Positions 3,633-29,693 of a DNA stretch of 31,038 nt are shown here, in pieces; position 1 is the stretch's first letter; every line of letters begins with the position of its first letter. This DNA is from a virus. The stretch spans positions 1 to 31,038 of the IMG/VR virus record IMGVR_UViG_3300015371_000126; one strand, written 5' to 3'. The notes beneath the pieces are model-generated. The model was not told the origin of the DNA. It searched no databases and was given only the letters and a program-made list of their open reading frames with translations. Made by a program: the position numbers and the translations under genes.

Positions 3633-4882
3633 TGGCTACTGCCACAGCATCAGAACTGCGCCTGGCGACGCTGCTGGACGAACGGGACCAGACGCAGAAG
3701 CTGCATGAAACTGTGATTACGACTGTCGAGGCGTCCGACGAAAAGATGCCGACAGAGTCGCAGGCAGAACAGATCAAGGCCTATCGTGAGAAGGCGCATG
3801 CGCTAGACGACGAGATCGCGCAGCTGTCGATCGACGTCGAGGCGGCACGGAAGGCGATGGAGACGTCGAAGGCGATTCGCCGCGCGCTGGCAGGATCGGT
3901 CGATGGCGTCGAGGTCGTCGACGATGAGATCGTCTATCGATCCATGTCCGCCTATGCGCGTGACGTCATCATCACGCGCGAAGGGCCGATCTGTTCGCAG
4001 ATCGCAGCCCAGTTTTCGACGCCCGACGGCATCCAGGCGGCACGCGATCGGCTGCGTCTCATCAAGAGAACGCCTGCCAACACGCTGTCGGCGAACGTCG
4101 AAGGGCTGCAGCCTGACCAGCACATCGCCCAGATCTTCCAGGTGATCGACACGTCGCGTCCGCTGGTCGCGTCGGCGATCAGGTCGACGCTAGAACGTGG
4201 CGTGCTGACGTATCCGTCGATCACGCAGCGGCCGGTCGTCGCTGTGCAGAACACGCAGAAGACGGAGGCTGGGAACACGGGCATGGTCGTGGACATGGAA
4301 ACGGCGACCGCCTCGACGTACCTGGGTGGCGGCGATCTTTCCTGGCAGGCGATCAATTGGTCGACGCCTGACGCCCTCGACCTCTGGTTCAGGCTGGCTG
4401 CTGCCAACTACGCCCTGAAGACGGAACAGGACGCAGCGCAGGCGATGCAGCACAGCGCATTCTCGTTCAATATCTCGTCGACGATCAGCGGTTCGCCTAC
4501 GTTCGCCGAATTCATGACGGCGATTGGCGCAGGCTATGCAGAGGTTTTCGCCAATTCTGGTCGCACGCCTGACACGATCTACATGGCGCCTGACCGCTTT
4601 GGCTATCTGCTGGGTTTGACGTCTAACGCCTTTACGCAGTTCACGAACGTCAGCGGTAGCCAGGTCGGACCGCTGAACGTGGTCGTGTCGCGCGGCATGG
4701 ATGCAGGCGTCGTCGTCGTCGGCGACAGCGAAGGGCTGTTGGTTGCAGAGACGGCAGGCGCGCCGGTCGAACTGCGCGTCGTCGAACCGGCAATCGGCGG
4801 CGTCGAGGTCGGCATCATCGGCGCATTCGAAGCCGTCGTGGTCGACCCCGGTGCGTTCGCAATGCTGACGACTGCCAGCTAA
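3632..4882 (+). CDS. Major capsid protein (HK97 fold)
   Basis: Main shell protein of the head. It has 416 residues. The first 100 or so are helical, charged and coiled-coil-like (delta domain, expected to be removed by the upstream protease), followed by the phage_capsid region with the typical E-loop/P-domain pattern, including LEGLQPDQHIAQIF, SRPLV and DLSWQAINWS. It starts at ATG 3632 with GGAGG at 3620-3624, the best ribosome binding site in the head region, fitting high expression. It is followed by a 14-bp hairpin in the 64-nt gap before the next gene. Confidence 0.95.
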   Translation: MATATASELRLATLLDERDQTQKLHETVITTVEASDEKMPTESQAEQIKAYREKAHALDDEIAQLSIDVEAARKAMETSKAIRRALAGSVDGVEVVDDEIVYRSMSAYARDVIITREGPICSQIAAQFSTPDGIQAARDRLRLIKRTPANTLSANVEGLQPDQHIAQIFQVIDTSRPLVASAIRSTLERGVLTYPSITQRPVVAVQNTQKTEAGNTGMVVDMETATASTYLGGGDLSWQAINWSTPDALDLWFRLAAANYALKTEQDAAQAMQHSAFSFNISSTISGSPTFAEFMTAIGAGYAEVFANSGRTPDTIYMAPDRFGYLLGLTSNAFTQFTNVSGSQVGPLNVVVSRGMDAGVVVVGDSEGLLVAETAGAPVELRVVEPAIGGVEVGIIGAFEAVVVDPGAFAMLTTAS

Positions 4883-4946: not shown

Positions 4947-5339
4947 ATGACTGTTGGACTGGCATCGAGTCAGGCGAACGCGATCCTGGACGCGATCTGC
5001 CGTAGTACCACCTACACAGACCCAGCGGCGTTCTGGGTGAAGCTGCACACGGGCGATCCTGGCGCCGCTGGTGCTGGCAACGCAGCTGGCGAGACGACGC
5101 GCAAACAGGCGACGTTCGCAGCGGCGTCTGGTGGATTGTCCACGACGTCGGCTGATCTCGTCTGGACGTCTGTATCGACCTCAGAGACGTATTCGCACGT
5201 CTCGTTCTGGGATGCCTCGACGGCAGGCACGTTCCTGGGGTCAGACGCCCTGGATACGTCGCGTGCCGTCATCGCAGGCGACACGTTCACGATCCCGACA
5301 GGGTCGCTGACCGTAACGCTGGCGCCGCTGGCTGCGTAA
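4947..5339 (+). CDS. Virion structural protein, Gp80/tail-fibre-like family
   Basis: 130-residue beta-rich protein. The pattern (N-terminal ANAILDAICRSTTYT, then FWVKLHTGDPG, then ETYSHVSFWDA, then a FTIPTGSLTVTL C-terminus) matches a family widespread in actinophages, usually annotated as a tail-fibre or Gp80-like protein. The molecular role is not established. Here it sits directly behind the capsid gene, so a head-decoration role is a reasonable alternative. GGGGAGG at 4932-4938 precedes ATG 4947. It is coupled to the next gene by TAATG at 5337-5341. Confidence 0.75.
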   Translation: MTVGLASSQANAILDAICRSTTYTDPAAFWVKLHTGDPGAAGAGNAAGETTRKQATFAAASGGLSTTSADLVWTSVSTSETYSHVSFWDASTAGTFLGSDALDTSRAVIAGDTFTIPTGSLTVTLAPLAA

Positions 5340-5671
5340 TGCCGACGTACACATACAAGGTTCTGGGGCAGTCGGACCCCAGCGCTGCGTCGCTGACCAC
5401 GCTTTACACAGTTCCTGCGTCTACGCAGACGGTCGTATCCACGATTACGGTCTGCAATCGATCGGCCACGGCGACGACGTATCGGCTTGCCATTCGCCCA
5501 GCTGGCGCAGCTATTGCAAATGCGCATTACATAGCCTACGACCACGAAATATTAGGTAACGAGTCATTCACCTGGACAGACGGCTTCACGCTAGCGACGA
5601 CTGACGTCATCAGCTGCTATGCCACGCTGGCGACGCTGTCATTCCAGGCGCACGGGCAGGAGATCACATAA
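5339..5671 (+). CDS. Small beta-rich virion protein
   Basis: 110 residues, predicted all-beta: LTTLYTVPASTQTVVSTI, VCNRSATATTYRLAI, HYIAYDHEI, then FTWTDGFTLATTDVI and a final strand. This pattern of VPA..QTVVST.TVCNR..T is common in small phage structural proteins that form a trimerising or decoration domain, but I cannot name a precise family. It is translationally coupled to both neighbours. Its TAA stop shares bases with the ATA proposed as start of the next gene. Confidence 0.7.
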   Translation: MPTYTYKVLGQSDPSAASLTTLYTVPASTQTVVSTITVCNRSATATTYRLAIRPAGAAIANAHYIAYDHEILGNESFTWTDGFTLATTDVISCYATLATLSFQAHGQEIT

Positions 5672-6375
5672 GCACGACGCGCACACAGCGAGGCGCATCT
5701 GTTCTGGGCAGATTTCTACAGCTCGACCAGATCACAGCCACGGGCGTATCGAATTACAGCGTGCCGTCGAACGCGCGAAAGCTGGTCGTTACCTGTATCG
5801 GCAGCGGCGGCGCTGGTGGATCGGCTGATGGCGGATCGTCACAGATGGGCTGCGGCGCAGGCGGTGGCGGCGCCGGTATGTGCGTGAAGGAATACGACGT
5901 CTCTGGTGGCGAGTCGATCGCCGTCACTGTCGGCGCTGCTGGTGCGCCTGGATCGACAGGCAATAACGCAGGCGGGAATGGCAACGTCACCGAATTCGAC
6001 ACTGGCGCGCTGCTGGCCACGAAAATGTCAGCCAAAGGCGGCACAGGTGGCGGATCTGTTGGCGCTGCAGGCACCAGTGTTGTGTTCAGCATGGGTGGCG
6101 CTGGCGCTGTCGTCGCTACAGGCGGCGATCTGAACATGGGTGGCCAGCCTGGGCTGATGGCCAAGCGTGAATCGGGAACGGTGGGCTGGTCTGGCGCTGG
6201 CGCGCCTGGTCCGCTGGGTGGCGGTGGCGGCGTCGGGCAGGCGGCTGGTTCTGCCGATGGCAACAGCGCGACGAACTACGGCGCTGGTGGCGGTGGCGCA
6301 ATGTCGAATAACACGACCGATCGCGCAGGCGGCGCAGGATCGCAGGGCGTGATTTTCATTCAGGTGTATTCGTGA
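5668..6375 (+). CDS. Glycine-rich appendage protein (probable ATA start)
   Basis: 235-residue protein with a beta N-terminus followed by a long Gly-rich region (GSGGAGG, GCGAGGGGAG, GGGGGVG), like the Gly-rich receptor-binding or tip domains of phage fibres. The usual strand motif before the Gly-rich part, YSVPSNARKLVVTCIGSGG, begins at about base 5755, so the only canonical start downstream of the last in-frame stop (TGA 5602), GTG 5761, would cut into the fold. The frame has no ATG, GTG or TTG between 5605 and 5760. ATA 5668 lies 5 nt after AGGAG (5658-5662) and overlaps the upstream TAA; CTG 5704 is the main alternative. The gene ends in a GTGA overlap with its neighbour. Confidence 0.72.
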   Translation: MSTTRTQRGASVLGRFLQLDQITATGVSNYSVPSNARKLVVTCIGSGGAGGSADGGSSQMGCGAGGGGAGMCVKEYDVSGGESIAVTVGAAGAPGSTGNNAGGNGNVTEFDTGALLATKMSAKGGTGGGSVGAAGTSVVFSMGGAGAVVATGGDLNMGGQPGLMAKRESGTVGWSGAGAPGPLGGGGGVGQAAGSADGNSATNYGAGGGGAMSNNTTDRAGGAGSQGVIFIQVYS

Positions 6376-6944
6376 CCGTTACGCGCACGCGCATACCAGC
6401 TGGGGCGACTGGTGCGGCTGGCGCGCCTGGCGCGATGGTTCGGCTTTATGACTCGCTGCTGACAGGGACAGCGTCCAACTTCGACCTAACGTCGATTAGC
6501 CAGGCTTACTATCACCTAAAACTGTATTTGTACCTGCGCAGCACGGGTGCCGTGGAAGGTGACTTTGCGCTAATGACGTTCAATGGCGATTCAGGCGCCA
6601 ATTACAACGAAGAAACGCTATACGGACAGAATACGACTGCAAGCGCAGGCAAGAGTGGCGGCGCGTCGCGCCTGGCGCCCATCTGGTCGTCAGCAGGCGG
6701 CAGCACAAACGCCGCCAACTTCGCAGGCGGCGTCTTTGATATTCCGCATTACACCGGCGCCAATCGAAAGATGATTTACGGCGTATGCGGTTCGTGGGAC
6801 GATGCTGGATCGCCTGCGTATGGCACGGTCGCTTCATACATGGGGCAATGGGCGAGTACGTCGGCGATCACCCAAATAACGCTAACGCCCTTTACAGGCA
6901 GTTTTGCAGCAGGATCGCGCGTCACGCTTTATGGGATCGCCTAG
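6372..6944 (+). CDS. Collagen-like virion appendage protein
   Basis: 190 residues. It opens with a short collagen-like stretch (GATGAAGAPGA, residues 12-21), followed by a compact beta domain with YYHLKLYLYLRS and LTPFTGSFAAGSRVTLYGIA, resembling the small trimeric domains of phage fibres. It starts at GTG 6372, in a GTGA overlap with the preceding gene. It ends at TAG 6942-6944. The stop codon of the antisense membrane ORF on the other strand occupies the same CTAG. Confidence 0.7.
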   Translation: MTVTRTRIPAGATGAAGAPGAMVRLYDSLLTGTASNFDLTSISQAYYHLKLYLYLRSTGAVEGDFALMTFNGDSGANYNEETLYGQNTTASAGKSGGASRLAPIWSSAGGSTNAANFAGGVFDIPHYTGANRKMIYGVCGSWDDAGSPAYGTVASYMGQWASTSAITQITLTPFTGSFAAGSRVTLYGIA

Positions 6945-7948: not shown

Positions 7949-8574
7949 CGCAGGTGATCTCGTTTGAAAACTATCGGCCGATCGCGCGTTATGACGACGT
8001 CCCCTGGGCAACAGTCAGGCTGGACGAAGGCGAGACGGCGACAGGTCCCTGGACGCAAATCGACACGTTCACGCTGGCGCCGGTCGACGTAGATCCCAGC
8101 GACCCTGCGGTGCGCAATTTCACGACCAGCCTGGCCAGCGACACGATCGGGCTGTGGTATCAGCTGACGTTCATCGATGGCGTCGCTGCCTCAGAACAGC
8201 CGACGGTGCCGGTGCAGAATCTGGCCAGCGATTCGACGCCCTATGCGACCGTCGACGAACTGGCGCGCATTCTGAAAATCCGCACGCCTACGGACGATCA
8301 GACCGTCGCAATGGAACGCGTACTGCTGGCAGCCGCTGGCGAGATCAATGCCGAAATGGATCGCGCCGACGACGACGACGACCTGGCTGGCTGGCAGCTG
8401 TCGCTGGCTACTGAAGTGAACCTGGAACGTGCCGTCGAACATTGGCGCCAGCAGGAGGCGCCATTCGGTGTAATCGGTCTGGGCGGCGAACTGCCGACGC
8501 ATCTGGGGCGTGACTCCTGGGAACGGCACGCGCTGAAGCTCGCGCCGCTGAAGACGCAATGGGGCGTCGCATAG
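7945..8574 (+). CDS. Head-tail connector with N-terminal Fn3-like domain
   Basis: 209 residues in two parts. Residues 1-95 look like a fibronectin III or Ig-like beta domain (ATVRLDEGETATGPWTQI, then WYQLTFIDGVAASEQ). Residues 95-209 are helical and match gp6-like head-tail connectors (YATVDELARILKIRTPTDDQ, an acidic DDDDD turn, VNLERAVEHWRQQEAPFG). Such connectors form the adaptor ring under the portal. The Fn3-type extension may project from the neck. It starts with ATGA overlap and its TAG overlaps the next gene by 16 nt. Confidence 0.82.
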   Translation: MTQVISFENYRPIARYDDVPWATVRLDEGETATGPWTQIDTFTLAPVDVDPSDPAVRNFTTSLASDTIGLWYQLTFIDGVAASEQPTVPVQNLASDSTPYATVDELARILKIRTPTDDQTVAMERVLLAAAGEINAEMDRADDDDDLAGWQLSLATEVNLERAVEHWRQQEAPFGVIGLGGELPTHLGRDSWERHALKLAPLKTQWGVA

Positions 8575-9014
8575 GCGTTCTGCGTGAAATCCTCGACCAG
8601 ATCGCACAGCAGCTGTCTGACGCATACGACGATCTCGACGTGCCTGTGCAGGTCGTGCCGCGCGCCTGGTTCAATCCCACGCCGCCATGCATCGATATGT
8701 GGCCAGGCGAGACGACACGCGACCCAAACAGCGCGGCATTCGGCGACATTGACGGTGGCTATGTCGTCACGCTGCGCGCGCGCGTCTCGACGGCCGATGG
8801 CGACGCTGGACAGGATCTGCTGGTGGCGTTCCTAGACGACACAGACGATCTGTGCATCGCGCGTCCGCTGTTCGACGAACCCACGCTGGGAGGCATTGCC
8901 TCGTCGATCCTGGTCGAACCGCCGCTGGGTCCGTTCCAGTACCCAGACCCCAGCGGCGAAGGGTCGCTGTGGGGCTACACCTGGCGCGTGACCGTATTGG
9001 CGATCCAGTCATGA
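8559..9014 (+). CDS. Head-tail joining / tail-terminator-like protein
   Basis: 151 residues with an N-terminal helix (LREILDQIAQQLSDAYDDL) and mixed alpha-beta body (PCIDMWPGE, YVVTLRARVSTADGDAGQDLLVAFLDD) ending in a beta strand (YTWRVTVLAIQS). This matches the small neck or tail-terminator proteins found between connector and tail tube. ATG 8559 is used here, overlapping the upstream gene by 16 nt. An in-frame ATA at 8571 lies in the stop overlap (ATAG) with GGGG 6 nt before it, so initiation there is possible too. Confidence 0.75.
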   Translation: MGRRIGVLREILDQIAQQLSDAYDDLDVPVQVVPRAWFNPTPPCIDMWPGETTRDPNSAAFGDIDGGYVVTLRARVSTADGDAGQDLLVAFLDDTDDLCIARPLFDEPTLGGIASSILVEPPLGPFQYPDPSGEGSLWGYTWRVTVLAIQS

Positions 9015-9649
9015 CGACGGCGACGCAGACACCGATCAGTCTGGAGGTCGGCTGCAGACGATCGCTGCTGTGCCGGGACATTGCCAGTGGTCTGCTAGAT
9101 CAGCTGCGCCAGGGATACGAACACTGCAGCGTGCTGCAGATCCCAGAAGCGATCGACGACTGGCGCGCAGACCATCGCAGCGCGCGAAAGCGTGCAGCGC
9201 GCGCGAGGCGATTTGGCTACCGATTCCAGCCGATCAATCGCAGTCTCTACACAGACGACATATGGGCGATCAATACGTCTGCGACTCATCGGCAAGGGCG
9301 CCCGATGACAGCCAGCTATCGACGTCGTCCCAGCGACGCCCCGCTGCCCGCCTACGCCTGCGCGCGTCACAGCGTCAGAACGTATGGCGTCCTGCGTGGC
9401 GATCGCTTACGCGCCTACCTGTGGCTATACAGGGCAGGCGATCTGGCGCTAGTCAGTTCGATTCTGGGGCACGCCAGCGATCTGGCGGACGGCATCATGT
9501 TTCTGCTGTTCGATGGCGTGCTGGAGGCAGAGACGTGGCACACGCCAGGCGTGATGGTCTACAACCGCCACGACTCAGGCACAGACGGGCTGCGTTTTTT
9601 CAAAGAACGCCTCGGCTTCGCAGCTGCGGAGGTCGCCTGGCTGCCGTGA
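9011..9649 (+). CDS. GNAT/FemAB-like acyltransferase
   Basis: 212 residues. The C-terminal half carries the signature of the FemAB/GNAT superfamily: AYLWLYRAGDLALVSSILGH, LFDGVLEAETW, then DSGTDGLRFFKERLGF. The N-terminal part is Arg-rich (RSARKRAARARRFGYRF). Such enzymes transfer acyl or aminoacyl groups to sugars or peptide amines. The true donor and acceptor cannot be read here. It is the first gene of a five-gene island that splits the neck genes from the tail tube gene, coupled to its neighbours by ATGA and GTGA. Confidence 0.65.
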   Translation: MTTATQTPISLEVGCRRSLLCRDIASGLLDQLRQGYEHCSVLQIPEAIDDWRADHRSARKRAARARRFGYRFQPINRSLYTDDIWAINTSATHRQGRPMTASYRRRPSDAPLPAYACARHSVRTYGVLRGDRLRAYLWLYRAGDLALVSSILGHASDLADGIMFLLFDGVLEAETWHTPGVMVYNRHDSGTDGLRFFKERLGFAAAEVAWLP

Positions 9650-10131
9650 CTGTGCTGGCGCCGCCTCTGGATGCAGTCTCAATGCAGGCGCGACCGTACC
9701 CAGCGCACAGCCTGAAGAGGCGAGGCACGGGCCTCTGTCTCTTCGCTGCTGCATTCAGTGGCGTAAACGACGCGATCCACATGGCGCGCGCAGACATGAC
9801 GGTCGACTGCGTCGACGTCAATCACAGCGCGCTGATGCAGATGGCGACGCTGTACCCACGCGACTGGTCGTTTCATCACGACGACGCCTGGACGTTCGCA
9901 GAGGAAAGCCGAGCTGCTGGCGTGGTCTGGGATTGCGTCAGCGTCGACACGTTCACTGGCGATGCCGAACAGCGCAGCATGGCGTCACTCGACCTCTGGT
10001 GCGCATTGGCAGCCAGCCTCGTCACAGCCACTGTCACGACGACGATGCGCTGGCGTGCGCCAGACGGCTGGCGTGGGTCGCTGTTTTTCCGATCGCCCGA
10101 CGTTCACTGGCTGGTGCTGCGTCCGTGCTGA
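9646..10131 (+). CDS. SAM-dependent methyltransferase-like protein
   Basis: 161 residues with a class I Rossmann order: a Gly-containing loop in GLCLFAAAFSGVNDAIHMA (about 28-46), an acidic strand end in VDCVDVNHSAL (motif II-like), an acidic residue in HHDDAWTF, then WDCVSVDTFTGD (motif IV-like) and a terminal beta hairpin. The glycine motif is weak (AAAFSG instead of GxGxG), so the activity could be degenerate. Starts at GTG 9646 in a GTGA overlap. Neighbours suggest a sugar or other small group as acceptor, but this is inference. Confidence 0.5.
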   Translation: MTVLAPPLDAVSMQARPYPAHSLKRRGTGLCLFAAAFSGVNDAIHMARADMTVDCVDVNHSALMQMATLYPRDWSFHHDDAWTFAEESRAAGVVWDCVSVDTFTGDAEQRSMASLDLWCALAASLVTATVTTTMRWRAPDGWRGSLFFRSPDVHWLVLRPC

Positions 10132-10709
10132 ATCCAGACGACGTCACCGCCTGCCTGGTCACGCGCGGCGATCAGCCCGAAATGATCTGGCGCATTCGGG
10201 ATTTGCTGATCTTCGACAGCGTGATCGTCTGGGATAACAGCGAACGCCCAGACCGCAAAACGGCCGGTCGATACTTCGCAATGCTGGAGGCAGCTACCGA
10301 TCTCGTCTATTTCCAAGACGACGACGTGCTGGTGCCGCCTCAGACGCAGTATGCGCTGGTCGACGACTACGACGGCGAACCATGTCTGGCCAACTGGGGC
10401 CACGGCGACGATCCAGATGGTTACGACGATCTGCCGCTGGTCTGCGGCGGTGCGATCGTCGACAGGCGCGCAGCCCTCGACGCGATGCTGCGCTGGGCAC
10501 GCTATTACCCGCTGGACGAAGCGTGGGACTACGAAGCCGATTTCGCTGTCGGCGCGCTGTATGAATCCTTCCGTCATGTTTGGCTGTCATTCGATATCCA
10601 GATGGACGTCGCACAGCATCCCAGTCGTCTGTGTAACCAGCCCTGGCAGCGCGATCTAAAACGGGCGGTCACAGAACAGGCGCGGTCGCTGCGCCAGGTA
10701 GTCGCATGA
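10125..10709 (+). CDS. GT-A (family 2-like) glycosyltransferase, short form
   Basis: 194 residues with the N-terminal nucleotide-sugar fold VTACLVTRGD, then VIVWDNSERPD, and a metal-binding acidic motif DLVYFQDDDVLVP (D65-D67). A later CGGAIVDRRAALDAML and an acidic LDEAWDYEADF segment fit the acceptor-side helix with a catalytic acidic residue. It is shorter than typical family 2 enzymes and lacks membrane segments, so it is probably cytosolic. GTG 10125 overlaps the previous stop by 7 nt. Donor and acceptor unknown; a phage virion glycan is a reasonable guess. Confidence 0.78.
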   Translation: MLNPDDVTACLVTRGDQPEMIWRIRDLLIFDSVIVWDNSERPDRKTAGRYFAMLEAATDLVYFQDDDVLVPPQTQYALVDDYDGEPCLANWGHGDDPDGYDDLPLVCGGAIVDRRAALDAMLRWARYYPLDEAWDYEADFAVGALYESFRHVWLSFDIQMDVAQHPSRLCNQPWQRDLKRAVTEQARSLRQVVA

Positions 10710-11443
10710 AAGACAGGGCGCCGTTCGACATGGCAGACCTGGCCGAACTGGAACTGTGCCTGCTGGAACGCGCAGCGCGCGTCGTCTCTATGGCCGAAAT
10801 CATCGACGGCGACGACGACACAGGCGTAATCGGTCTGCGTCACGACGTCGACAATTTCATCGAACCAGCTGTCAGCCTCGCTGCCTGGGAAGGCGACAGA
10901 GGCTACCGCGCCACATATTTCGTGCTGCATACGGCGCCCTACTGGACAGACAAAGTTCTGCTGCGCGATTCGCTGGCAGCGATCAGCGAACAGGGTCACG
11001 AAATCGGTTTCCACCTGAACGCGATTACGCAGGCGCTAGAGACGGGCGGCGATCCGCTGGACCTGCTAGACGAGGCGGTCGAGGAACTGCGCAGCTATGG
11101 CTATGCCGTGCGGGGCGTGGTCGCGCATGGCGACGCTGCCTGTTACACACACACGTTTGTAAATGACGAGATCTTCAGCGAATCGCCTCGACCAGACTGG
11201 GGCGCACCAGATCGTCTGATCGGCGGACGCGTCCAGCTGAAGCCTGTGTCGCGCGCCAAATTCGGTTTCGACTACGACCCGAACTGGATCACGCGCAGCG
11301 ATTACCTGTCTGATTCGGGCGGTCGCTGGTCACAGCCGTTCGACGAGGTCTGCGAGCGTTTCCCTTCGCTGATCGGCCAGCTGCACATTCTCTGGCATCC
11401 AGACTGGTGGTCGCAGGCGTTCCCACAGGCGGTCGCCGCCTAG
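10706..11443 (+). CDS. NodB-type polysaccharide deacetylase-like protein
   Basis: 245 residues. NodB motifs are visible in order: LRHDVD (residues 44-49, metal and base Asp), YRATYFVL (67-74), GHEIGFHLN with the metal-binding His103, GVVAHGD and a late LHILWHPDWW. Family members remove N-acetyl or other acyl groups from sugars. There is no signal peptide, unlike peptidoglycan deacetylases, so it probably acts on cytosolic sugars or nascent virions. Coupled by ATGA to the glycosyltransferase upstream and directly abutting the next one. Confidence 0.75.
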   Translation: MKDRAPFDMADLAELELCLLERAARVVSMAEIIDGDDDTGVIGLRHDVDNFIEPAVSLAAWEGDRGYRATYFVLHTAPYWTDKVLLRDSLAAISEQGHEIGFHLNAITQALETGGDPLDLLDEAVEELRSYGYAVRGVVAHGDAACYTHTFVNDEIFSESPRPDWGAPDRLIGGRVQLKPVSRAKFGFDYDPNWITRSDYLSDSGGRWSQPFDEVCERFPSLIGQLHILWHPDWWSQAFPQAVAA

Positions 11444-12433
11444 ATGCCGTCTCTGTGGTTCGTCGTGCCCGTTCACGGGAGGCTACCGCTCGCCCTAATC
11501 TGCCTCCGTCAGCTGCGCCAGACCTGTGATGCGCTGACGGCAGACGGCGTGGACGCCACGGCTGTCGTGGTTGCCGACGCAGACGATCTGCGCGCGCTGC
11601 GTCATCGCCTCGACCGTCGCCTACTGGGATTCGGCAGCGTCGAACGCGATAACGCCTACCTGAGTCGGCGCTACAACGACGGCATTCAGCTGGCGTGCGA
11701 TCGACCGCTGCCGCCTCGACGACGCGACGCCACGCACGGCGAATATCTGGTCGCAGGCGTTCGGGCCTATCGTGGCCACCAGCCAGGCGTCGTCTTCGCA
11801 GCCAGCCTGGACCGTGGCGCCGAATCGCGCGCGATCTACAGAGGCGATCTTCGCCTACTGCGGCGCGTGCGTCCTGGGCTGCGTCCAGACAGCTGGCAGC
11901 TGCCCGACGGCTGGGACCCAGAACGAGCTGCGGATTACGTCGTGCCGTGTGGATCTGACGACTGGATCGACCATCGCATCCTGCTTTCGTTGCCTGACCA
12001 GCGCACGGTCGTCGGGTTTCAGCACATCGCATTCGTCAGAGAAGACGGCCGGGAAATGGTCGCACGTCATCTGGCGTACACAGGTGGCTGCGGCATTCGG
12101 ATCTACCCTCGCCAGCTGCTGGAGGCGCTGACGTTTAGACCAGGCGACGAAGACAGACAGCGCGCCTGCGATACGTCGATTTTGACGAACCTACGCACGC
12201 AGCACGGCGATCGAATGCGAGTTCGGCACGTCGCCATCGATCCACGGCAGATCGTCGACTGGAAATCTGGCGCGCAGCAGCTGAACAGCTATTCGATGAT
12301 TGCCCAGCACAGGGCTGAACGGTCGTGGGACGACCCATTCGCCGCGCTGGCAGACCTCTTCCCTGCGCAATCCCTGCGCGCCATGCGTGCGCACTACGCG
12401 CGCGCGCAACCACCGCAGGCGGTGTACGCCTGA
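11444..12433 (+). CDS. Glycosyltransferase, GT-A family
   Basis: 329 residues. The N-terminus FVVPVHGRLPLALICLRQL is a family 2 start; the metal/donor motif is CGSDDWID (D172-D173), followed by a GFQHIAFV strand and an acceptor-side GGCGIRIYPRQLLEAL. The central segment (about 85-165) is Arg-rich and unusual for the family. There are no membrane segments. The ATG starts right after the deacetylase TAG, and the gene is the last of the island: 26 nt with a GAGGGAGGG site separate it from the tail tube gene. Confidence 0.8.
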   Translation: MPSLWFVVPVHGRLPLALICLRQLRQTCDALTADGVDATAVVVADADDLRALRHRLDRRLLGFGSVERDNAYLSRRYNDGIQLACDRPLPPRRRDATHGEYLVAGVRAYRGHQPGVVFAASLDRGAESRAIYRGDLRLLRRVRPGLRPDSWQLPDGWDPERAADYVVPCGSDDWIDHRILLSLPDQRTVVGFQHIAFVREDGREMVARHLAYTGGCGIRIYPRQLLEALTFRPGDEDRQRACDTSILTNLRTQHGDRMRVRHVAIDPRQIVDWKSGAQQLNSYSMIAQHRAERSWDDPFAALADLFPAQSLRAMRAHYARAQPPQAVYA

Positions 12434-12459
12434 CCACAGTAGAGGGAGGGTAGATCGGC

Positions 12460-12876
12460 ATGTCGTATACGAAGATTGTCGCGCTGCACGATCGAATCGA
12501 GATCGACGGCACGGACGTTTCTAACTCATTCAATGAGTTCGGGTTCACGTCCGAACACACGGAGGTCGATGCATCCGGCTTCAGTGTCACCGGTACCGAC
12601 GAGACGCTGCCTGGCAACACGCAGCAGGGCTTCACTGGCACAGCGTTCATGTCTGAAGAGTTCATCGCACTAGTCGCGCCGCTGCACGCGAATAAAACGG
12701 TCGTCGAAATTCTCTGGCAGCCGAATGGGCTGGTGAATAGCGCTGCGACCACGTTTTTTGGAAACTGCACAATCAACACGTTCAGCCCGACTGACACGCG
12801 TGGGTCAGTCTCGACGATGGCGTTCACGGCAAAGCCTGCAGACGAGGACGGTATCCAGTCGGGCGCCGGGACCTAG
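12460..12876 (+). CDS. Major tail (tube) protein
   Basis: 138 residues, beta-rich, matching small siphophage tail tube subunits: HDRIEIDGTDVSNSFNEFGF, then VDASGFSVTGTDETLPG, then FFGNCTINTFSPTDTRGSVST. Many copies stack to form the tube. GAGGGAGGG at 12443-12451 gives a strong ribosome binding site before ATG 12460, one of only a few non-overlapping starts in the operon, fitting high expression. It is directly upstream of the frameshifted chaperone. Confidence 0.85.
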   Translation: MSYTKIVALHDRIEIDGTDVSNSFNEFGFTSEHTEVDASGFSVTGTDETLPGNTQQGFTGTAFMSEEFIALVAPLHANKTVVEILWQPNGLVNSAATTFFGNCTINTFSPTDTRGSVSTMAFTAKPADEDGIQSGAGT

Positions 12877-12893
12877 ACTAGACAGGAGGTCGC

Positions 12894-13424
12894 ATGGCCG
12901 AATCCGACGCTGGATTCCAGATCGGCGGCGTCGTCTATCCATTTCCGACGCTGGATTCACTCGACCTGGACGAAGCCGAGCTGTTGTACCTGGCCAGTGG
13001 CTGGGGCATCGAAGATTTCGTCATCGATCCAGACGATGCCAATGTCGGCGAGGTCGCCAAACGCTTGATACGCGCCTCGACGCTGAAGGCGCTGGCGACG
13101 ATCGCCTATAGACGTGCGCATCCAGACGTCGACGAGGCGTTCGCAGCGGCGCTGGCTGGTAAGGCAAACGCAATGGGCGCCCTGACGGCGCTGATGACAC
13201 GGGGAGACGATGCAGACCCCCCGTCCGAGGCGCCGACGAACGGCGCGACGCCATCATCGAACGAAATCGCCTCGTCAGAGAACGTCTCGTCAGACTCACC
13301 GAACGCGATTTCTGGGAACGCTTCAGAGACGAATTCGGCCGAACAGGACGACGACCAGCTGACTACGTCGACGCCCGCGTCTCACACGTCACGGGGTACA
13401 CACGCGCCACAGCCGGTTCGATGA
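12894..13424 (+). CDS. Tail assembly chaperone, zero-frame product (gpG-like)
   Basis: 176 residues. Residues 1-105 are a helical domain typical of tail assembly chaperones (VVYPFPTLDSLDLDEAELLYL, then a long helix to about 100). They hold the tape measure during tail assembly. The C-terminus after residue 110 is Ser/Thr/Asn-rich and overprinted on a second frame. AGGAGG at 12883-12888 precedes ATG 12894. The zero frame ends at TGA 13422-13424; a longer product arises by the -1 shift described in the next entry. Confidence 0.85.
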   Translation: MAESDAGFQIGGVVYPFPTLDSLDLDEAELLYLASGWGIEDFVIDPDDANVGEVAKRLIRASTLKALATIAYRRAHPDVDEAFAAALAGKANAMGALTALMTRGDDADPPSEAPTNGATPSSNEIASSENVSSDSPNAISGNASETNSAEQDDDQLTTSTPASHTSRGTHAPQPVR

Positions 13425-13477
13425 GGCCTGCTGATCTGCTGGCAGCCCTAGACATATTCAATGCGCTATTCAGCTGA
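12894..13477 (+). CDS. Tail assembly chaperone, -1 frameshift product (gpGT-like)
   Basis: Shifting back one base at CCCCCCG (13217-13223) fuses the chaperone domain to a C-terminal domain of about 85 residues in the -1 frame. That frame reads as a charged helix (ERNRLVRERLVRLTERDFW), then RPADYVDARV, then SMRPADLLAALDIFNALF, exactly the pattern of the T domain of tail chaperones, and ends at TGA 13475-13477, overlapping the next ATG as TGATG. The fused product has 194 residues. The -1 frame has no start of its own, so only frameshifting expresses it. Efficiency is unknown. Confidence 0.88.
13217..13223 (+). other. -1 ribosomal slippery site CCCCCCG
   Basis: Heptamer C CCC CCG in the zero frame (codons 13218 CCC and 13221 CCG). 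After a one-base slip both tRNAs re-pair as CCC CCC, which fits tandem slippage. It lies about 200 nt before the zero-frame stop. GC-rich sequence follows directly; I did not define a pseudoknot. Confidence 0.85.
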
Positions 13478-13875
13478 TGGCAGCTAGTCGCGCGCTGCGT
13501 GTGCGTGGTCTGCGTGAACTGAATCGGGCGTTCGCCCTCGCCGACGCGACGTATCAGCGTGACTATCACGCCAGCCTGCGAAAGATCGCCGAACCAGTCA
13601 GGCGAGACGCAGAACGCCTGGCAGGCGACGAGGTCCGCAATGTCCATCCAGGCGACGACTGGGCAGGTATGCGCGTTGGCATCACGCGCAGGCTGGTCTA
13701 CGTCGCACCGCAGAAGCGAGGTAGCAAGCGAGGCACAAAGAAACGCCCGAACCTGGCGCCGCTGCTGATGGACAGGGCGATGCAGCCAGCGCTGGATTCT
13801 GGCGTCGGCGGCGTGACGGCCGAATTCGGTCTGCTGCTGGATCACATGGCGTCCGTCTGGGGTCGCGGTGGCTAA
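13477..13875 (+). CDS. HK97 gp10-like tail/neck protein
   Basis: 132 residues, starting RALRVRGLRELNRAFALAD with a long helix, then KIAEPVRRDAERLAGDEV, a beta region with GMRVGITRRLVYVAPQKRG, and a final LMDRAMQPALDSGV helix. This resembles HK97 gp10-like small proteins and other minor tail proteins. In most siphophages this gene lies before the tail tube gene; here it follows the chaperone. Its start overlaps the frameshifted product's stop, and it overlaps the tape measure start by 8 nt. Confidence 0.7.
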   Translation: MAASRALRVRGLRELNRAFALADATYQRDYHASLRKIAEPVRRDAERLAGDEVRNVHPGDDWAGMRVGITRRLVYVAPQKRGSKRGTKKRPNLAPLLMDRAMQPALDSGVGGVTAEFGLLLDHMASVWGRGG

Positions 13876-16360
13876 CAGAAAACTCATCGTCGAGATCATC
13901 GGCGACAGCTCGTCGCTGGAACGTGCATTCGGCCGATCGGCGAAAGGCGCCAAAGCCTTTGGCACCAGCCTGATCGGCATAAACCAGGGCGTCAAAGCCT
14001 CGACCGTGGCGCTGGCTGGTGGCGTCGGGTCGCTGTCGGCATTCGGGCTGGCCAGTCTGAATGCATCGGCGCACTACGGCGACGCCATGCAGCGCATCGT
14101 CGGGCTGTCGGGAGTCGCGCAGGACAGCGTCAACCAGTTTTCTGACGAGGTCCTGAACCTGTCGCGCAGCGTCGGGCGCGGTCCGCAGGAACTGGCAGAA
14201 GCGCTGTTTTTCATCACGTCGTCGGGCATCGATGCAGCCCACGCAATGGACGTGCTGAAGGTGTCCGCAGAGGCATCTGCAGCAGGGCTGGGACAGACGC
14301 AGGTGGTCGCCGACGCCATTACGTCAGCGATGAACGCCTACGGTCCGGCAGTCGTCGACGCCACGCGCGCGACAGACGTTCTGGTCGCCACCGTTCGTGA
14401 GGGTAAAGGCGAGGCGGCCGATTTCGCTGGCGTCATCGGCAACGTCACCGCCTTTGCATCACAGCTGGGCGTCAGTTTTGAGGACGTCGGCGCAGCGCTG
14501 GCAGCGATGACGAGGCTGGGCACAGATGCAGAGACGTCGGCGATTCAGCTGCAGCAGGTTTTCAGCGCGCTGGTCAAAGTCTCGCCAGCCTCCGAAAAGG
14601 CGTTCCGATCAGTCGGGCTATCCAGCGCTGCGCTGCGCAAGGAACTGCGCGAACGCGGGCTGCTGGCCACGCTACAGACGCTGAAAACAGCGTTCGGCGG
14701 TAACGAAGTCGCAATGGCTGGCGCCTTCCGTGAAATTCGCGCGCTGCGCGGCGTCTTCTCGCTGATCGGCAACCAGGCGCAGACCACGGCTGGGATCTTC
14801 GATCGCATGTCGCACAGCGCGGGATCGCTAGAGACGGCTTTCGGTGCCGTCAAGGAAGACGACCTGAACCGCTGGCGCCGATTCAGCGCCACAGTCGACA
14901 CGCTGAAAATCAAACTGGGTGGCGCGCTATCTAAGCCGCTGACAGAGGCAGCCGACGACGCCCTACACCTACTCAATGTCCTAGAGAAGCTGGCAGCCGT
15001 CAGAATTCCCGTTATCAAAATTCCCTTTACGACGGTCAAGGTCCCTGGCCAAAAAGAGGGGACGACGCTAGGCGACATTTTCGAGAAATCCCTGTTTATC
15101 GGGCCGGAGGCCGTCCAGTCGATAATCGACATTATCCAGGGCAGTGGCGATAAGGTCGGCGATGCTGGCAGTAAGGCATTCGCCAAAGAGATCCAGAAGA
15201 TTCGGGATAAGTTCGGCGCTGCACGTCTGGGTCCGCCTGCGCCTGGTGCAAACCAGACACCGTTCATGAAAGAGATCGAACGGATTAGAAAGCAGTATCA
15301 GGTGGCGATTCCACCTGGCGTGTTCATCGGCCAAAGTGGAATCTTTGGCGCCGACACACGAAAGATCACGACGAAGCTGGTCGAACAGCGCAATAAGGTT
15401 TTCGACGCGATGATCGGTCGCCAGCGCGATCGTGTGCAGGACGTGCCATCGCTACAGGGACAGGTCGCAGCGCTGACGCGCATCGGCAGTCTGCTACAGC
15501 AGCGCCTCGACAAAACGAAAGACGCGACGCGACGGCTGAACCTGGAACAGCAGATTCTGGAAAACAGCCGCGCCGTTCAGGCGGCACGACAGGACATTCA
15601 GGACGCCTTTCTAGACCGCCTCGGCTTCAGGCTGACGAAGGCAGAGGCGACAGCGGGGCTGAAGGACGACGTCGCAGCGCTGGCCACGATCAATGCCGAA
15701 CTGGCCAAGCGCATCGAAGCCGAAAAGGACGTCAATCGGAAACTGCAGCTCGAACAGCAGCTGTTCGACAATCAGCAGAAGCTGCGCCAGAAGAGGCAGC
15801 AGCAGGCTGACGCTGCGCAGTTCAGACAGCTGGGGTTGGGTCCGACAGGCGACAAACTGATTCCGACCGTGCCACGGCTGCAGAAGGAACTGGGCACGAT
15901 CGAAAACCTAGTGTCAGGTACGTTCCTCGACACGACGAAAACGCAGTCTGTCTTTCGCCAGATCGCCAACGTGCTGTCGGCAGGCGTCGACAACGTCAGC
16001 GGCAATGTGCGCCAGGCGATCCAGCAGATGCTGTCTGACATAGATCGGCAGCTGCGCGATCACCAGTCTGGCCATCAGACGCGCGCACGCGTCGTCGACA
16101 CAGATCGAATCCTGTCTGGGCTGGGTCTGTCGCCAGACCAGATCCGTGAGGCGAAAGCCAAGCTGGCGCATCTGACTGTGACGCCACCGCCGACAGTGAC
16201 CAGGCAGGGTCGTGCGCTGCCAGCTGGCGCCGTCGTCGCTGGAGGCGACACGCTGGTTCAAGTCTTCGTCGGCGGTAAGCAGGTCGAAGCTGTCGTCACT
16301 CGACAGCAGCAGACGCGCGCACGGCGCAATCCGCCTCGTCGTCGAGGCGGACACCGATAG
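13868..16360 (+). CDS. Tape measure protein
   Basis: 830 residues, the longest gene, sets tail length and is packed inside the tail tube. Residues 1-330 are a TP901-type tail domain (SSSLERAFGRSAKG, ALAGGVGSLSAFGLA hydrophobic segment, ELAEALFFITSSGIDAA). Residues 529-597 and 598-666 are two copies of a helical unit of the type VAALTRIGSLLQQRLDKT, KDATRRLNLEQQ. The C-terminus is basic (TRARRNPPRRRGGHR). Starts at GTG 13868 and ends at TAG that overlaps an in-frame ATA of the next gene. Confidence 0.93.
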   Translation: MANRKLIVEIIGDSSSLERAFGRSAKGAKAFGTSLIGINQGVKASTVALAGGVGSLSAFGLASLNASAHYGDAMQRIVGLSGVAQDSVNQFSDEVLNLSRSVGRGPQELAEALFFITSSGIDAAHAMDVLKVSAEASAAGLGQTQVVADAITSAMNAYGPAVVDATRATDVLVATVREGKGEAADFAGVIGNVTAFASQLGVSFEDVGAALAAMTRLGTDAETSAIQLQQVFSALVKVSPASEKAFRSVGLSSAALRKELRERGLLATLQTLKTAFGGNEVAMAGAFREIRALRGVFSLIGNQAQTTAGIFDRMSHSAGSLETAFGAVKEDDLNRWRRFSATVDTLKIKLGGALSKPLTEAADDALHLLNVLEKLAAVRIPVIKIPFTTVKVPGQKEGTTLGDIFEKSLFIGPEAVQSIIDIIQGSGDKVGDAGSKAFAKEIQKIRDKFGAARLGPPAPGANQTPFMKEIERIRKQYQVAIPPGVFIGQSGIFGADTRKITTKLVEQRNKVFDAMIGRQRDRVQDVPSLQGQVAALTRIGSLLQQRLDKTKDATRRLNLEQQILENSRAVQAARQDIQDAFLDRLGFRLTKAEATAGLKDDVAALATINAELAKRIEAEKDVNRKLQLEQQLFDNQQKLRQKRQQQADAAQFRQLGLGPTGDKLIPTVPRLQKELGTIENLVSGTFLDTTKTQSVFRQIANVLSAGVDNVSGNVRQAIQQMLSDIDRQLRDHQSGHQTRARVVDTDRILSGLGLSPDQIREAKAKLAHLTVTPPPTVTRQGRALPAGAVVAGGDTLVQVFVGGKQVEAVVTRQQQTRARRNPPRRRGGHR

Positions 16361-17733
16361 CCCTCGCTGGTCGCGTGTCGATCGGCTTTGCCGACGATGA
16401 ACTGACGCCTAACGACGACGTCGCCTGGACAGTGATCGACGACGTGGTTCGTGTGGCGCAGATAGAGATCCACGACGGGCGCCAGACCGAATTCGACGAG
16501 ACAGAGACGGGCAGCGCCACGATTGCTATCCACGACCGCACAGGCGACTTCGACCCAAATAACGTCGGCAGCCCGTATTTCGGCCAGCTGGACAGTCGAC
16601 CGATCGCAGTAGCGCTGTGGAATCCAGTAGATCTGGAATGGGTGCCGCAGTGGCGAGGCACGATCGATGATCTGCAGTACGTCATCGAACCTGTGATCGG
16701 GCCAGACGGCAAACCGATTCTGGCGAACGTCCAAATTGAATGCGTCGACATTTTCGACTACCTGGGCACCGCCGAAATGGCGCCGCTGGATGGTTTGGGA
16801 GGCGGCGACGGCGACACGCCACCGCCGGATTCTGACGTCGGGCTGATCTTTTACGAAGACGCCAACGTCGACGACAGGATCAATGCGCTACTGACAGACG
16901 CGCGAATCCCGACAGCGTCGCTGGCCATGCGTGTCGTCTTCAGCGGAAACGTCAAGGTCTTGGAATCGAAATACGACACAGGCGACACGTTCCTATCTGC
17001 GCTGCGCGAGGCAGCCGATGCTGAATTCCCTGGTCTAGCTGCGCTGTACGTCGATTCGCTGGGGCGCGTGGTTTTTCATGGCAGGCAGGCGAGGCTAGAT
17101 CCCTTTGGCGTCGCAGCCGACGCTGGTGGGTCGTGGGATTTCACGCGCTGGAAAGCTGGCGACGGCCCAGCCGTTCAGGCTGACTCGACGCGTGCCCAAA
17201 TTCGGGAATTCGCCTACGCCAGGTCGAGGTCGCGCAGGATCAATCGCGCCACCTGTTACCCAGAATTCACAGCCGACGTCGACATACCTGGGCAGACGGT
17301 CGACGTCAGCGCAGGCGGTCCGATCTATTCACGATCGGACACAGACCTAATCAATGACGGGCACCAGGCGAATGGCGCGCCAGCTGCGTCCGATACGGGT
17401 CTCGACGACACGCTGAAGATCGCCACGTTTTGGACGACGTACTACAGCGAGGCGCTGACCAGGATCGAACGCGTGACGTTCAAGTCTGTACGTCCGACAG
17501 ATCCACGAGCTGCAGCGACGTGGGGTCTGCTGACAGGCGCGTCGATCTCCGATCAGCTGAACGTCAGCGTGGGTTATCCAGGCGGCACGGGCATTCAGGA
17601 CACGAACTACTACATAGAGGGGCGGGACATGACGATTACGCCTCTCGACCCAGACTTCGACATGGTCGAACTGACGCTGAACGTCTCGCCAGCGATTGTC
17701 GACACAGAAGGGATCTTCGACGGCGACGGCTGA
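16357..17733 (+). CDS. Minor tail protein (Dit/Tal-like tail tip)
   Basis: 458 residues. The N-terminal part (RVSIGFADDELTPNDDVAWTVIDDVV, then DETETGSATIAIHDRTGDFDPNN) is typical of actinophage minor tail proteins that follow the tape measure; the middle contains FLSALREAADAEFPGLAALYVD, and the C-terminus a beta region (DTNYYIEGRDMTITPLD). ATA 16357 is proposed because it overlaps the tape-measure TAG and has GAGG 9 nt upstream; GTG 16375 is the conventional alternative and has no clear ribosome binding site. The call does not depend on the start. Confidence 0.82.
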   Translation: MALAGRVSIGFADDELTPNDDVAWTVIDDVVRVAQIEIHDGRQTEFDETETGSATIAIHDRTGDFDPNNVGSPYFGQLDSRPIAVALWNPVDLEWVPQWRGTIDDLQYVIEPVIGPDGKPILANVQIECVDIFDYLGTAEMAPLDGLGGGDGDTPPPDSDVGLIFYEDANVDDRINALLTDARIPTASLAMRVVFSGNVKVLESKYDTGDTFLSALREAADAEFPGLAALYVDSLGRVVFHGRQARLDPFGVAADAGGSWDFTRWKAGDGPAVQADSTRAQIREFAYARSRSRRINRATCYPEFTADVDIPGQTVDVSAGGPIYSRSDTDLINDGHQANGAPAASDTGLDDTLKIATFWTTYYSEALTRIERVTFKSVRPTDPRAAATWGLLTGASISDQLNVSVGYPGGTGIQDTNYYIEGRDMTITPLDPDFDMVELTLNVSPAIVDTEGIFDGDG

Positions 17734-18185
17734 TGCCTGGTCTGCCGATTCCATATCGCAACCACGGCAACAGGCACAGACCAGGCGGCACAGATCCCAT
17801 CCCCGATCTGGAATCAGGCGGGGGCAAGTTTGAACTAAAAGTGTTTCCAGACACGGCGATTTTGGCTACTGGCGACGGCGCCCTAATCATGTTCGTTCCA
17901 GAGGATTTGGACGCCACGGCGCTGACTGCTGTAGCTGCTGCCGTGACGACCGTTTCTAGTTCAGGCCTTCCGACTGTGCAGATCAGGAATGTGACGCAGG
18001 CGCACGACATGCTGACGACCAGGATCACGATCGACGCCTCAGAATTCACCAGCTACACAGCTGCGACGCCTCCAGTCATAAACGCAGCGAACGCCACAGT
18101 GGCGAAGGGCGACAGGATCGCTATCGACGTCGACGTCGCAGGCACGGGCGCCAAAGGGCTGATGGTCGCGCTGGAGTTCGCATAG
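17733..18185 (+). CDS. Small tail-tip/fibre protein
   Basis: 150 residues. It has the common appendage pattern: a His/Pro/Gly N-terminus (PYRNHGNRHRPGGTDPIPD), a beta domain beginning ATGDGALIMFVPEDLDA, then VQIRNVTQAHDMLTTRITID and KGDRIAIDVDVAGTGAKGLMVAL. Such short domains occur in many actinophage tail tips and often in multi-domain fibres. TGATG overlap at 17731-17735 gives the start. It probably sits beside the preceding protein at the tip; receptor binding is possible but unproven. Confidence 0.75.
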   Translation: MPGLPIPYRNHGNRHRPGGTDPIPDLESGGGKFELKVFPDTAILATGDGALIMFVPEDLDATALTAVAAAVTTVSSSGLPTVQIRNVTQAHDMLTTRITIDASEFTSYTAATPPVINAANATVAKGDRIAIDVDVAGTGAKGLMVALEFA

Positions 18186-27895: not shown

Positions 27896-28371
27896 TGGCC
27901 CTTGAGGAATTGCGCATGGCTGCCGCTGTCGGCTGCGAACGCCAGCTGCGTGCGATGCGTGGCAACTACTCACCTGGCCACGGGCTGAAGCCAGCGCCGG
28001 TCAATGACTGGGGCATTTCGATCTGTGGCGCAGCGGCCGAACTGTTCGTCGCCAAATCCCTCGACCTATTCTGGTGCGACCGGCCAGCCCTCGACTATGA
28101 CGGCGACGTCGGGCCGTACCACGTTCGCTGGACGCCTTACGTCTCTGGCCATCTGACGATCCACGCACCAGACCCAGAAGACGCGCCGTTCGTGCTGGTC
28201 ACAGGCACGCCGCCGCAGCTGGCGATCAGGGGCTGGACGTTCGCCCACGTCGCACAGCAGAAGCGCTACTGGTCCGATCTGGGTGGCGACGGGCGATGGG
28301 CGTTCAATCTGCCAATCAGCGATCTGCAGCCGATGGTCGAACTGCCGACGATCCACGAGCTTCAGCTATGA
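27895..28371 (+). CDS. Conserved phage protein, PD-(D/E)XK-like pattern
   Basis: 158 residues. It shows ICGAAAELFVAKSLDLFW, DYDGDVGPYHVRWTPYVSG and APFVLVTGTPPQLAIRGW. This E...AK, DVG..x.VR arrangement is a widespread phage protein of unknown function that resembles restriction-endonuclease-like folds, but the Lys of a canonical EXK is replaced by Arg. TGATG coupling at 27893-27897 favours ATG 27895 over GTG 27889. Confidence 0.6.
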   Translation: MALEELRMAAAVGCERQLRAMRGNYSPGHGLKPAPVNDWGISICGAAAELFVAKSLDLFWCDRPALDYDGDVGPYHVRWTPYVSGHLTIHAPDPEDAPFVLVTGTPPQLAIRGWTFAHVAQQKRYWSDLGGDGRWAFNLPISDLQPMVELPTIHELQL

Positions 28372-29693
28372 CGATGCGCTGGCTGCAGGATTCTGACTTC
28401 GTCCTCTGGCAGGGCGACGTCGTCGACGTTCTGGATGGCGAGATCGCCAGCGATTCGATCGACTGCTGCATCACGTCGCCGCCTTACTGGGGTCTGCGCG
28501 ACTACGGCACAGGTGGCTGGTCAGGTGGCGGCGCTGACTGCGACCACGCAGCGGCGAAGCGCACGACACGTTTCGACTATTCGCTAGAGGCGACGCGCGC
28601 CAATCCTCACCAGGTCCGTGCACAGACGACCGCGCCAGAAGGGACAGACGGCAGGCAATGGCACAGCGTCTGCCCGACGTGCGGCGCCAGGCGCGTCGAT
28701 GCACAGCTGGGGCTGGAGGCGACGCCAGAGGAATACGTCAGCCGTCTGGTCGACGTCTTTCGTGAGGTCTGGCGCGTGCTGGCACCGCACGGCAGCGTCT
28801 GGCTGAACCTGGGTGACAGCTACAGCGGCGCCACGCCTGGTCGAAACGATCTCGACCGCATCGGCCAACGCGTGACCGATCCGAATCCCACGACGCCGCC
28901 GACGTCGAAATACACAGACGACGCCCAGCGCCAGCGTCGAGGCGCACGCAGCGCCTCTGGGCTGCCTGCGAAAAACCTGGTCGGGATTCCCTGGCGTGTC
29001 GCCTTCGCCCTGCAGCGTGACGGCTGGCTGCTGCGTAGCGACACGATCTGGGCGAAGCCGAACCCGATTCCAGAATCGGTCGCCGATCGTCCGACGAAGT
29101 CACACGAATACGTTTTCCTGCTGGCCAAACAGCCGCGCTACTGGTTCGACCAGGCGGCGGTCGCCGAACGTGCGATCAGCGGTACAGACCTGGGGCTGCT
29201 GCGTGGTCGCATCCCAGACGACGCAGACGACCGTGTCAGCTGGCACGCAGATTCCATCGCAGCCAGGCAGCGCGCTGGCGTCGACAGTCGCACCGGCAAT
29301 CCATCGGCCACCAGGAACGTGCGCAGCGTCTGGTCGATCAGCGCGCAGCCCTACGCCCACGCGCATTTCGCCACCTATCCGACCGAACTGGTGCGGCGCT
29401 GCCTCTTGGCCAGCTGTCCCCAGCGCGTCTGCCTCGACTGTGGCCAGCCCGACGGCTGGTCTGACTGTGACCACGACAGCTGGCGTCCAGGCGTCGTCCT
29501 AGATCCGTTCATCGGGTCCGGCACGACGGCGCTGGTGGCACGTCGGCATACGCGCGCCTGCGTCGGCATTGAACTGAACCCCGCCTATTGCCATCTGATC
29601 GAACACAGACTGCAGCAGCTGGCGTTGGATGGCGCCGAATACGAACCGCCGCTGGTCGAGGCTGTCGACGTGCAGGAATCGCTATGGGCGTAA
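28368..29693 (+). CDS. DNA adenine/cytosine-N4 methyltransferase
   Basis: 441 residues. Beta-class order: catalytic TSPPYWGLRDYG (S37-Y40) first, SAM-binding DPFIGSGTTA (379-385) near the C-terminus, and two Cys pairs (CPTCGARR and CLDCGQ) that suggest a structural zinc ribbon in the central part. SPPY is typical of N4-cytosine enzymes, but N6-adenine cannot be excluded. No partner endonuclease is evident, so it is an orphan that protects phage DNA. Coupled by ATGA to its upstream neighbour. Confidence 0.88.
   Translation: MTMRWLQDSDFVLWQGDVVDVLDGEIASDSIDCCITSPPYWGLRDYGTGGWSGGGADCDHAAAKRTTRFDYSLEATRANPHQVRAQTTAPEGTDGRQWHSVCPTCGARRVDAQLGLEATPEEYVSRLVDVFREVWRVLAPHGSVWLNLGDSYSGATPGRNDLDRIGQRVTDPNPTTPPTSKYTDDAQRQRRGARSASGLPAKNLVGIPWRVAFALQRDGWLLRSDTIWAKPNPIPESVADRPTKSHEYVFLLAKQPRYWFDQAAVAERAISGTDLGLLRGRIPDDADDRVSWHADSIAARQRAGVDSRTGNPSATRNVRSVWSISAQPYAHAHFATYPTELVRRCLLASCPQRVCLDCGQPDGWSDCDHDSWRPGVVLDPFIGSGTTALVARRHTRACVGIELNPAYCHLIEHRLQQLALDGAEYEPPLVEAVDVQESLWA

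Follow-up and report, generated by a model that had tools for sequence, protein, structure and literature searches.

Does one tail gene of an uncultivated phage make two proteins from a single start, and if so, where would ribosomes change frame and what would the two products be? The question is raised by positions 12894 to 13477 of the 31,038-base IMG/VR virus record IMGVR_UViG_3300015371_000126 (the window is the whole record), which derives from an uncultivated tailed phage and contains a portal gene and a tail module. A first-pass annotation, made from the letters alone, had placed here a tail assembly chaperone with a −1 frameshift at CCCCCCG. In phage lambda, a −1 shift close to the end of G yields a fusion beside the short G protein, and the two act with the tape measure and major tail proteins (available text of PMC5009743). 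On the sequence comparisons described below, the locus very probably encodes a tail assembly chaperone of the G/GT kind known from lambda, with a longer form that arises through −1 ribosomal frameshifting.

Two overlapping frames and an in-phase heptamer

From the major tail protein gene to the tape measure gene, all features of the locus lie on the + strand. The zero frame (12894–13424, ATG to TGA) encodes a gpG-like protein of 176 amino acids, which is folded to about residue 103 and continues as a low-complexity tail. An open −1 frame spans 13163–13477 and contains a T-like domain of 85 residues (13220–13474) followed by a TGA stop at 13475–13477. The final A of this stop is the first base of the ATG of the next gene (13477), so the overlap of stop and start noted in the first-pass annotation is real, and its estimate of about 200 nt coding in two frames agrees with our count of 198 nt between the last base of the heptamer and the zero-frame stop. 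The −1 frame contains no ATG, GTG or TTG upstream of 13421, and the 85-residue domain therefore requires a shift; a −1 shift would yield a G-T fusion of 194 amino acids (12894–13477). Together, these features fit an architecture in which two products would arise from one start, the longer through frameshifting, as does the selection pattern described below.

The slippery heptamer C_CCC_CCG (13217–13223) is the single copy of CCCCCCG in the whole record, and it is read in the zero frame as GAC CCC CCG, the phase needed for re-pairing on CCC CCC. Shuffling the gene's own codons 20,000 times placed an in-phase CCCCCCG within the open overlap in 0.9% of cases, and any in-phase XXXYYYZ in 28%. The −1 frame stays open from 13217 to 13424 in 2% of synonymous recodings. 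Taken alone, these odds are suggestive of frameshifting, and it is the comparison with relatives that is decisive. Combined with conservation in two relatives and with the substitution pattern, they confirm, at the level of sequence, a frameshift arrangement beyond chance.

The heptamer itself is of a kind known to slip. Indeed, in E. coli reporters without stimulators, C_CC.C_CC.G, C_CC.C_CC.A, C_CC.U_UU.G and C_CC.U_UU.A all belong to the heptamers that shift at >0.10% and are underrepresented in that species, and C_CC.Y tetramers are ranked as shift-prone given a strong stimulator (Sharma et al., PMC4066793, available text). Proline pairs of the CCC/U-C type are also reported to cause frameshifting, of the +1 kind (PMC8129111, available text), which supports the slipperiness of such pairs and not the −1 direction. 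A literature search for CCCCCCG in phage frameshifting returned nothing relevant, a weak negative since papers write the motif with separators.

Conservation and selection across related loci

A search with the G domain identified two IMG/VR contigs (L001 and L002, 64 and 63% identity), and a search with the −1 domain independently recovers the same two (65 and 66% identity). In each of them CCCCCCG stands at locus position 4324 in the phase seen in the window, and their −1 frame, the stop of which overlaps the start of the next gene, opens at 4318, only 6 nt earlier; the slip site in these contigs must therefore be at 4318 or later. A third contig (L097, T identity 47%) has the same heptamer, again with the −1 frame opening 6 nt before it, and the heptamer is shared with more distant loci as well. 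Comparison narrows the site down further than one sequence alone could.

The wider family was reached in two ways: 22 further contigs (L035–L056) through P0001, the product of the gene after the window chaperone, and 38 loci, on contigs partly shared with that set, through a profile scan with the relatives' T domain. Duplicates were removed before counting (L066, L071, L072 and L077, together with L095 and L096, which are the same contigs as L001 and L002), and the counts leave out L051 (no chaperone frame in the region viewed), L043 (ends before the chaperone) and the tape measure relatives L005–L034. Each of the 41 distinct loci, window included, has an open upstream frame relative to which the T domain is encoded at −1. 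A slip-type motif is present at the G/T junction in 39 of the 41; L041 (AAACCCT) and L088 (GAC CCT CAG) are counted in the 41 and lie outside the 39. These 39 loci are related and non-independent, and proportions among them are descriptive only.

Canonical heptamers account for 22 of the 39 junctions (CCCCCCG 13, CCCTTTG 6, and CCCCCCA, CCCTTTA and CCCAAAC 1 each), and the remaining 17 have CCCTCCN, which includes a C_CC.Y-type tetramer. The CCCTCCN loci, in which the motif is not a canonical heptamer, are L057–L060, L062–L065, L067–L070, L073, L082, L090, L091 and L049; in L069, L082 and L091 the −1 frame opens 6–9 nt before the motif. Where more than one in-phase candidate was present (L063, L081, L092 and L093), the one at the G/T junction was taken, and the common form C_CCN is partly our choice. 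The −1 frame opens at most 9 nt before the motif in 13 of the 39 loci, and a Pro-Pro pair is found at the junction in 31. In 38 of the 39, no start codon occurs at or after the slip site until the last 45 codons, and in 34 there is none anywhere upstream in the −1 frame either. The stretch between the slip motif and the zero-frame stop has a median length of 153 nt (range 24–198, 39 loci). The zero-frame stop lies 50–56 nt before the −1 stop in 29 of the 39 loci (in the window it is at 13422–13424) and is usually formed from NTG-A of the T domain.

Substitutions in the overlap show which frame is constrained. A comparison of the zero-frame tails of L001 and L002 gives 11 substitutions, of which 8 are at zero-frame codon position 2, equivalent to −1 position 3, with a dN of 0.083 and a dS of 0; over the whole T domain read in the −1 frame, dN is 0.022 and dS 0.196. 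Across 12 independent, non-overlapping locus pairs, overlap substitutions at −1 codon positions 1, 2 and 3 number 58, 59 and 133. Since substitutions gather at −1 position 3, which is zero-frame position 2, the −1 (T) frame is the constrained one. The frameshift at CCCCCCG proposed in the first-pass annotation is thus upheld by the phase of the heptamer, the position of the gene and a −1 frame that is conserved, under selection and lacking a start codon of its own.

The low-complexity character of the zero-frame tail, also noted at first pass, is real: S, P, T, G, A, N and Q make up 0.73 of the window tail, against 0.60 expected from T codons read one base on (p 0.008). In most relatives the composition equals this expectation, and in most loci low complexity is a by-product of T-domain codons read one base on. 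The window is an exception, with an open frame expected in 4.9% and the composition p value given above. We also considered selection on the zero-frame tail itself, which is unsupported in most loci, where composition is at expectation.

Candidate stimulators around the probable slip site

A Shine-Dalgarno (SD)-like GGGGAG at 13201–13206 lies 10 nt 5′ of the heptamer, and in E. coli dnaX the SD-to-heptamer spacing is 10 nt. Its anti-SD duplex energy of −7.5 kcal/mol, calculated with an assumed host anti-SD, is within the best 1.2% of positions in 8001–18000. The element contains GGAG within the spacing range published by Sharma et al.; by the same criteria an SD-like element occurs in 36 of the 39 loci (those without are L081, L097 and L054). 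As background, 13% of codon positions in eight genes of the window would qualify, and in the other loci 20% of positions. Across loci, anti-SD affinity has a sharp peak at 7–11 nt spacing. The element persists where the usual Glu-Glu is replaced, by Arg-Gly-Asp in the window and by Gly-Gly-Glu in L001. Upon synonymous recoding, the mean anti-SD energy is −8.0 observed versus −6.9 expected; the window GGGGAG is not significant against recoding (p 0.163), and most relatives have p above 0.3. Selection on the SD-like RNA is not demonstrated because synonymous recoding yields nearly equal affinity. A role for the element as a stimulator of the shift is plausible, and its presence largely follows from the encoded residues.

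On pseudoknot-free folding, downstream RNA structure as a frameshift stimulator is not supported. A possible 6-bp G+C hairpin (13230–13246), weak and situated 6 nt 3′ of the heptamer, is unsupported as a selected feature; the 3′ stretch containing it ranks at the 49th percentile of window folding, with z −0.30. In the window, three stretches give z of −0.30, −0.11 and 0.45, no better than shuffles. In L001 a single stretch of 67 nt reaches z −2.40, which becomes −0.41 when 124 nt are folded, and among 22 representative loci, 7 fold within the best 7.5% of their own locus and 15 do not.

Identity of the gene and alternative readings

The chaperone gene lies between the genes for the major tail protein (12460–12876, 138 aa) and the tape measure protein (13868–16360; PF10145, E 9.8e-24; phrog_991, E 1.3e-31), with a 132-aa gene (P0001, 13477–13875) intervening before the tape measure; relatives of the 132-aa product weakly match ‘tail completion or Neck1’. 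The major tail protein has no direct PHROG or Pfam match and is assigned by profile comparison: a profile of the window protein with those of L001 and L002 matches the relatives' major tail proteins in hhalign (E 3.9e-7, probability 92.8), and these in turn match phrog_4574. In the relatives of the L035–L056 set that were read through, the order is major tail, P0001-like gene, chaperone and tape measure; in the window and L002 it is swapped, with the 132-aa gene after the chaperone instead of before it. Elsewhere in the window, between the portal and major tail protein genes, 4947–6944 and 9933–12433 contain fibre-like genes (PF23140, E 1.6e-30; phrog_863 ‘tail fiber assembly’, E 3.9e-28) and glycosyltransferase-like and deacetylase-like ORFs (weak PF00535, E 0.0067, the rest by eye), and a DNA methylase gene is found at 28296–29693 (PF01555, E 1.6e-37).

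At the protein level, the window-type T domains match those of the wider relatives in hhalign (E 1.4e-7, probability 94.0), and the G domains match with E 2.3e-4 and a probability of only 44.6%. With the family alignment, AlphaFold2 folds T confidently into helices (mean pLDDT 87.7) and G residues 1–109 with moderate confidence (mean pLDDT 75.4). Pfam and PHROGs searches with G, T and their relatives gave no match above chance and no named chaperone family; a tblastn search of 50,697 phage records with G and with T gave no match, and a relative's T gave only chance-level matches to phage records. Two scans of genome contigs, one per T profile, gave no match, hence no pointer to a host, and a PDB sequence profile search with G gave 0 matches. 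In a BFVD fold search with G, all matches are weak: the best hit (E 0.032) is uncharacterized, and named tail assembly chaperones appear at ranks 6 and 8 (E 0.16–0.21). The G fold aligns with ORF12 of lactococcal phage p2 (PDB 3d8l), a tape-measure chaperone, with Z 2.2, level with unrelated chains; fold searches with the T domain gave no convincing match to a known T domain. The helix described at first pass as T-domain-like is thus predicted as helical and matches no named T-domain family, and the −1 frame has homology to −1 domains of uncultivated phages only, none to named tail chaperone families. By sequence, G and T both fall outside the named families; what supports the name tail assembly chaperone is where the gene lies, how it is built and the weak fold similarities.

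It is very improbable that a gene with a real frameshift here encodes some other two-domain morphogenesis protein. The want of a named family match for either domain and the extra gene before the tape measure gene would allow this reading; against it are the place of the gene, which follows that of the major tail protein and adjoins the tape measure module, the four relatives (L035, L036, L044 and L050) in which the shifted gene lies directly 5′ of the next long, tape-measure-sized ORF, and the wide conservation of G-T architecture in this gene of long-tailed phages (PMC5009743, available text).

Three other readings concern the change of frame itself. RNA polymerase could slip on the six-base C homopolymer, so that some mRNAs gain an extra C with the same change of frame as a −1 shift. 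However, 25 of the 39 junctions (CCCTCCN 17, CCCTTTG 6, CCCTTTA 1 and CCCAAAC 1) are without a homopolymer of six and keep the same −1 arrangement, which makes transcriptional slippage unlikely as the family mechanism, and the SD-like element upstream in 36 loci would be without a role in transcription; we regard this reading as very improbable. Still less probable is a free-standing T gene that overlaps G, has a start of its own and is not fused to G. The −1 frame is open from 13163 and GGGGAG lies 5′ of the T domain, as such a gene might have, but there is no start codon in that frame before 13421, only 6 nt are open before the heptamer in L001 and L002, and the 34 loci without any upstream start in the −1 frame repeat the pattern. 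Homopolymers are prone to indels, and an assembly or sequencing error in the C run, or decay of a gene that was once one continuous frame, would also separate the two domains; given the identical frame relation in 41 of 41 loci with several junction motifs, and purifying selection on both arms, we consider this close to negligible.

In the favoured reading, that of −1 ribosomal frameshifting, most ribosomes would translate 12894–13424 into the 176-aa gpG-like protein. A minority would arrive at CCC CCG with the P site and the A site both occupied by tRNA-Pro (assuming the host's Pro tRNAs) and, perhaps helped by the SD-like element, slip back one base in tandem on the C run. With the two anticodons paired anew to CCC CCC, translation would proceed in the −1 frame as far as 13477, giving the fusion with its helical T domain. 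The ratio and the functions of the products are taken from lambda; by that analogy, the 176-aa protein would cover the tape measure protein, and recruitment of the major tail protein would fall to the fusion.

The likeness to lambda gpG and gpGT lies in a short protein with a −1 fusion and in a tail gene by the tape measure and major tail genes, here read from the genes alone, and there is no detectable sequence similarity to the window proteins. The lambda slippery heptamer is G_GGA_AAG, whereas the window has C_CCC_CCG, 198 nt to the zero-frame stop and one gene before the tape measure. The actinobacteriophage chaperones surveyed by PRFect are alike in their −1 shift and high GC content, and the ‘six’ motif of the survey appears to be a run of six (PMC10885494, available text). 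They differ in that tblastn against the 50,697 phage records gave no match to the window, and in overlap length: the window overlap of 198 nt (family median 153) compares with a mean site-to-in-frame-stop distance of 26 nt in the survey and 36 nt in the Xu set, as described there (PMC10885494, available text). With E. coli dnaX the window shares an SD-like element upstream of the heptamer (PMC3711429, available text); it differs in having no supported hairpin, Pro instead of Lys codons, and a fusion that is the longer product. The window chaperone is a sequence-divergent addition to the well-known −1 frameshift chaperones, with no named relative family.

Automatic annotation of such a locus would yield the 176-aa frame only and miss the constrained 85-aa domain, and the long overlap makes it a useful case for frameshift predictors, which score closeness to the in-frame stop. 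We tentatively raise the idea, doubtful as yet, that this chaperone family shifts from a proline codon (C_CCN), mostly at Pro-Pro, about 10 nt past an SD-like element and with 3′ structure dispensable, and that slow Pro-Pro bond formation may be the pause driving the −1 slip; in that case, the G:GT ratio would vary with EF-P and the supply of Pro-tRNA. Together, these observations fix a likely shift site for a chaperone family that is unnamed in family databases, and show that the slip motif can change, between CCCCCCG, CCCTTTG, CCCAAAC and CCCTCCN, while the two-frame architecture stays.
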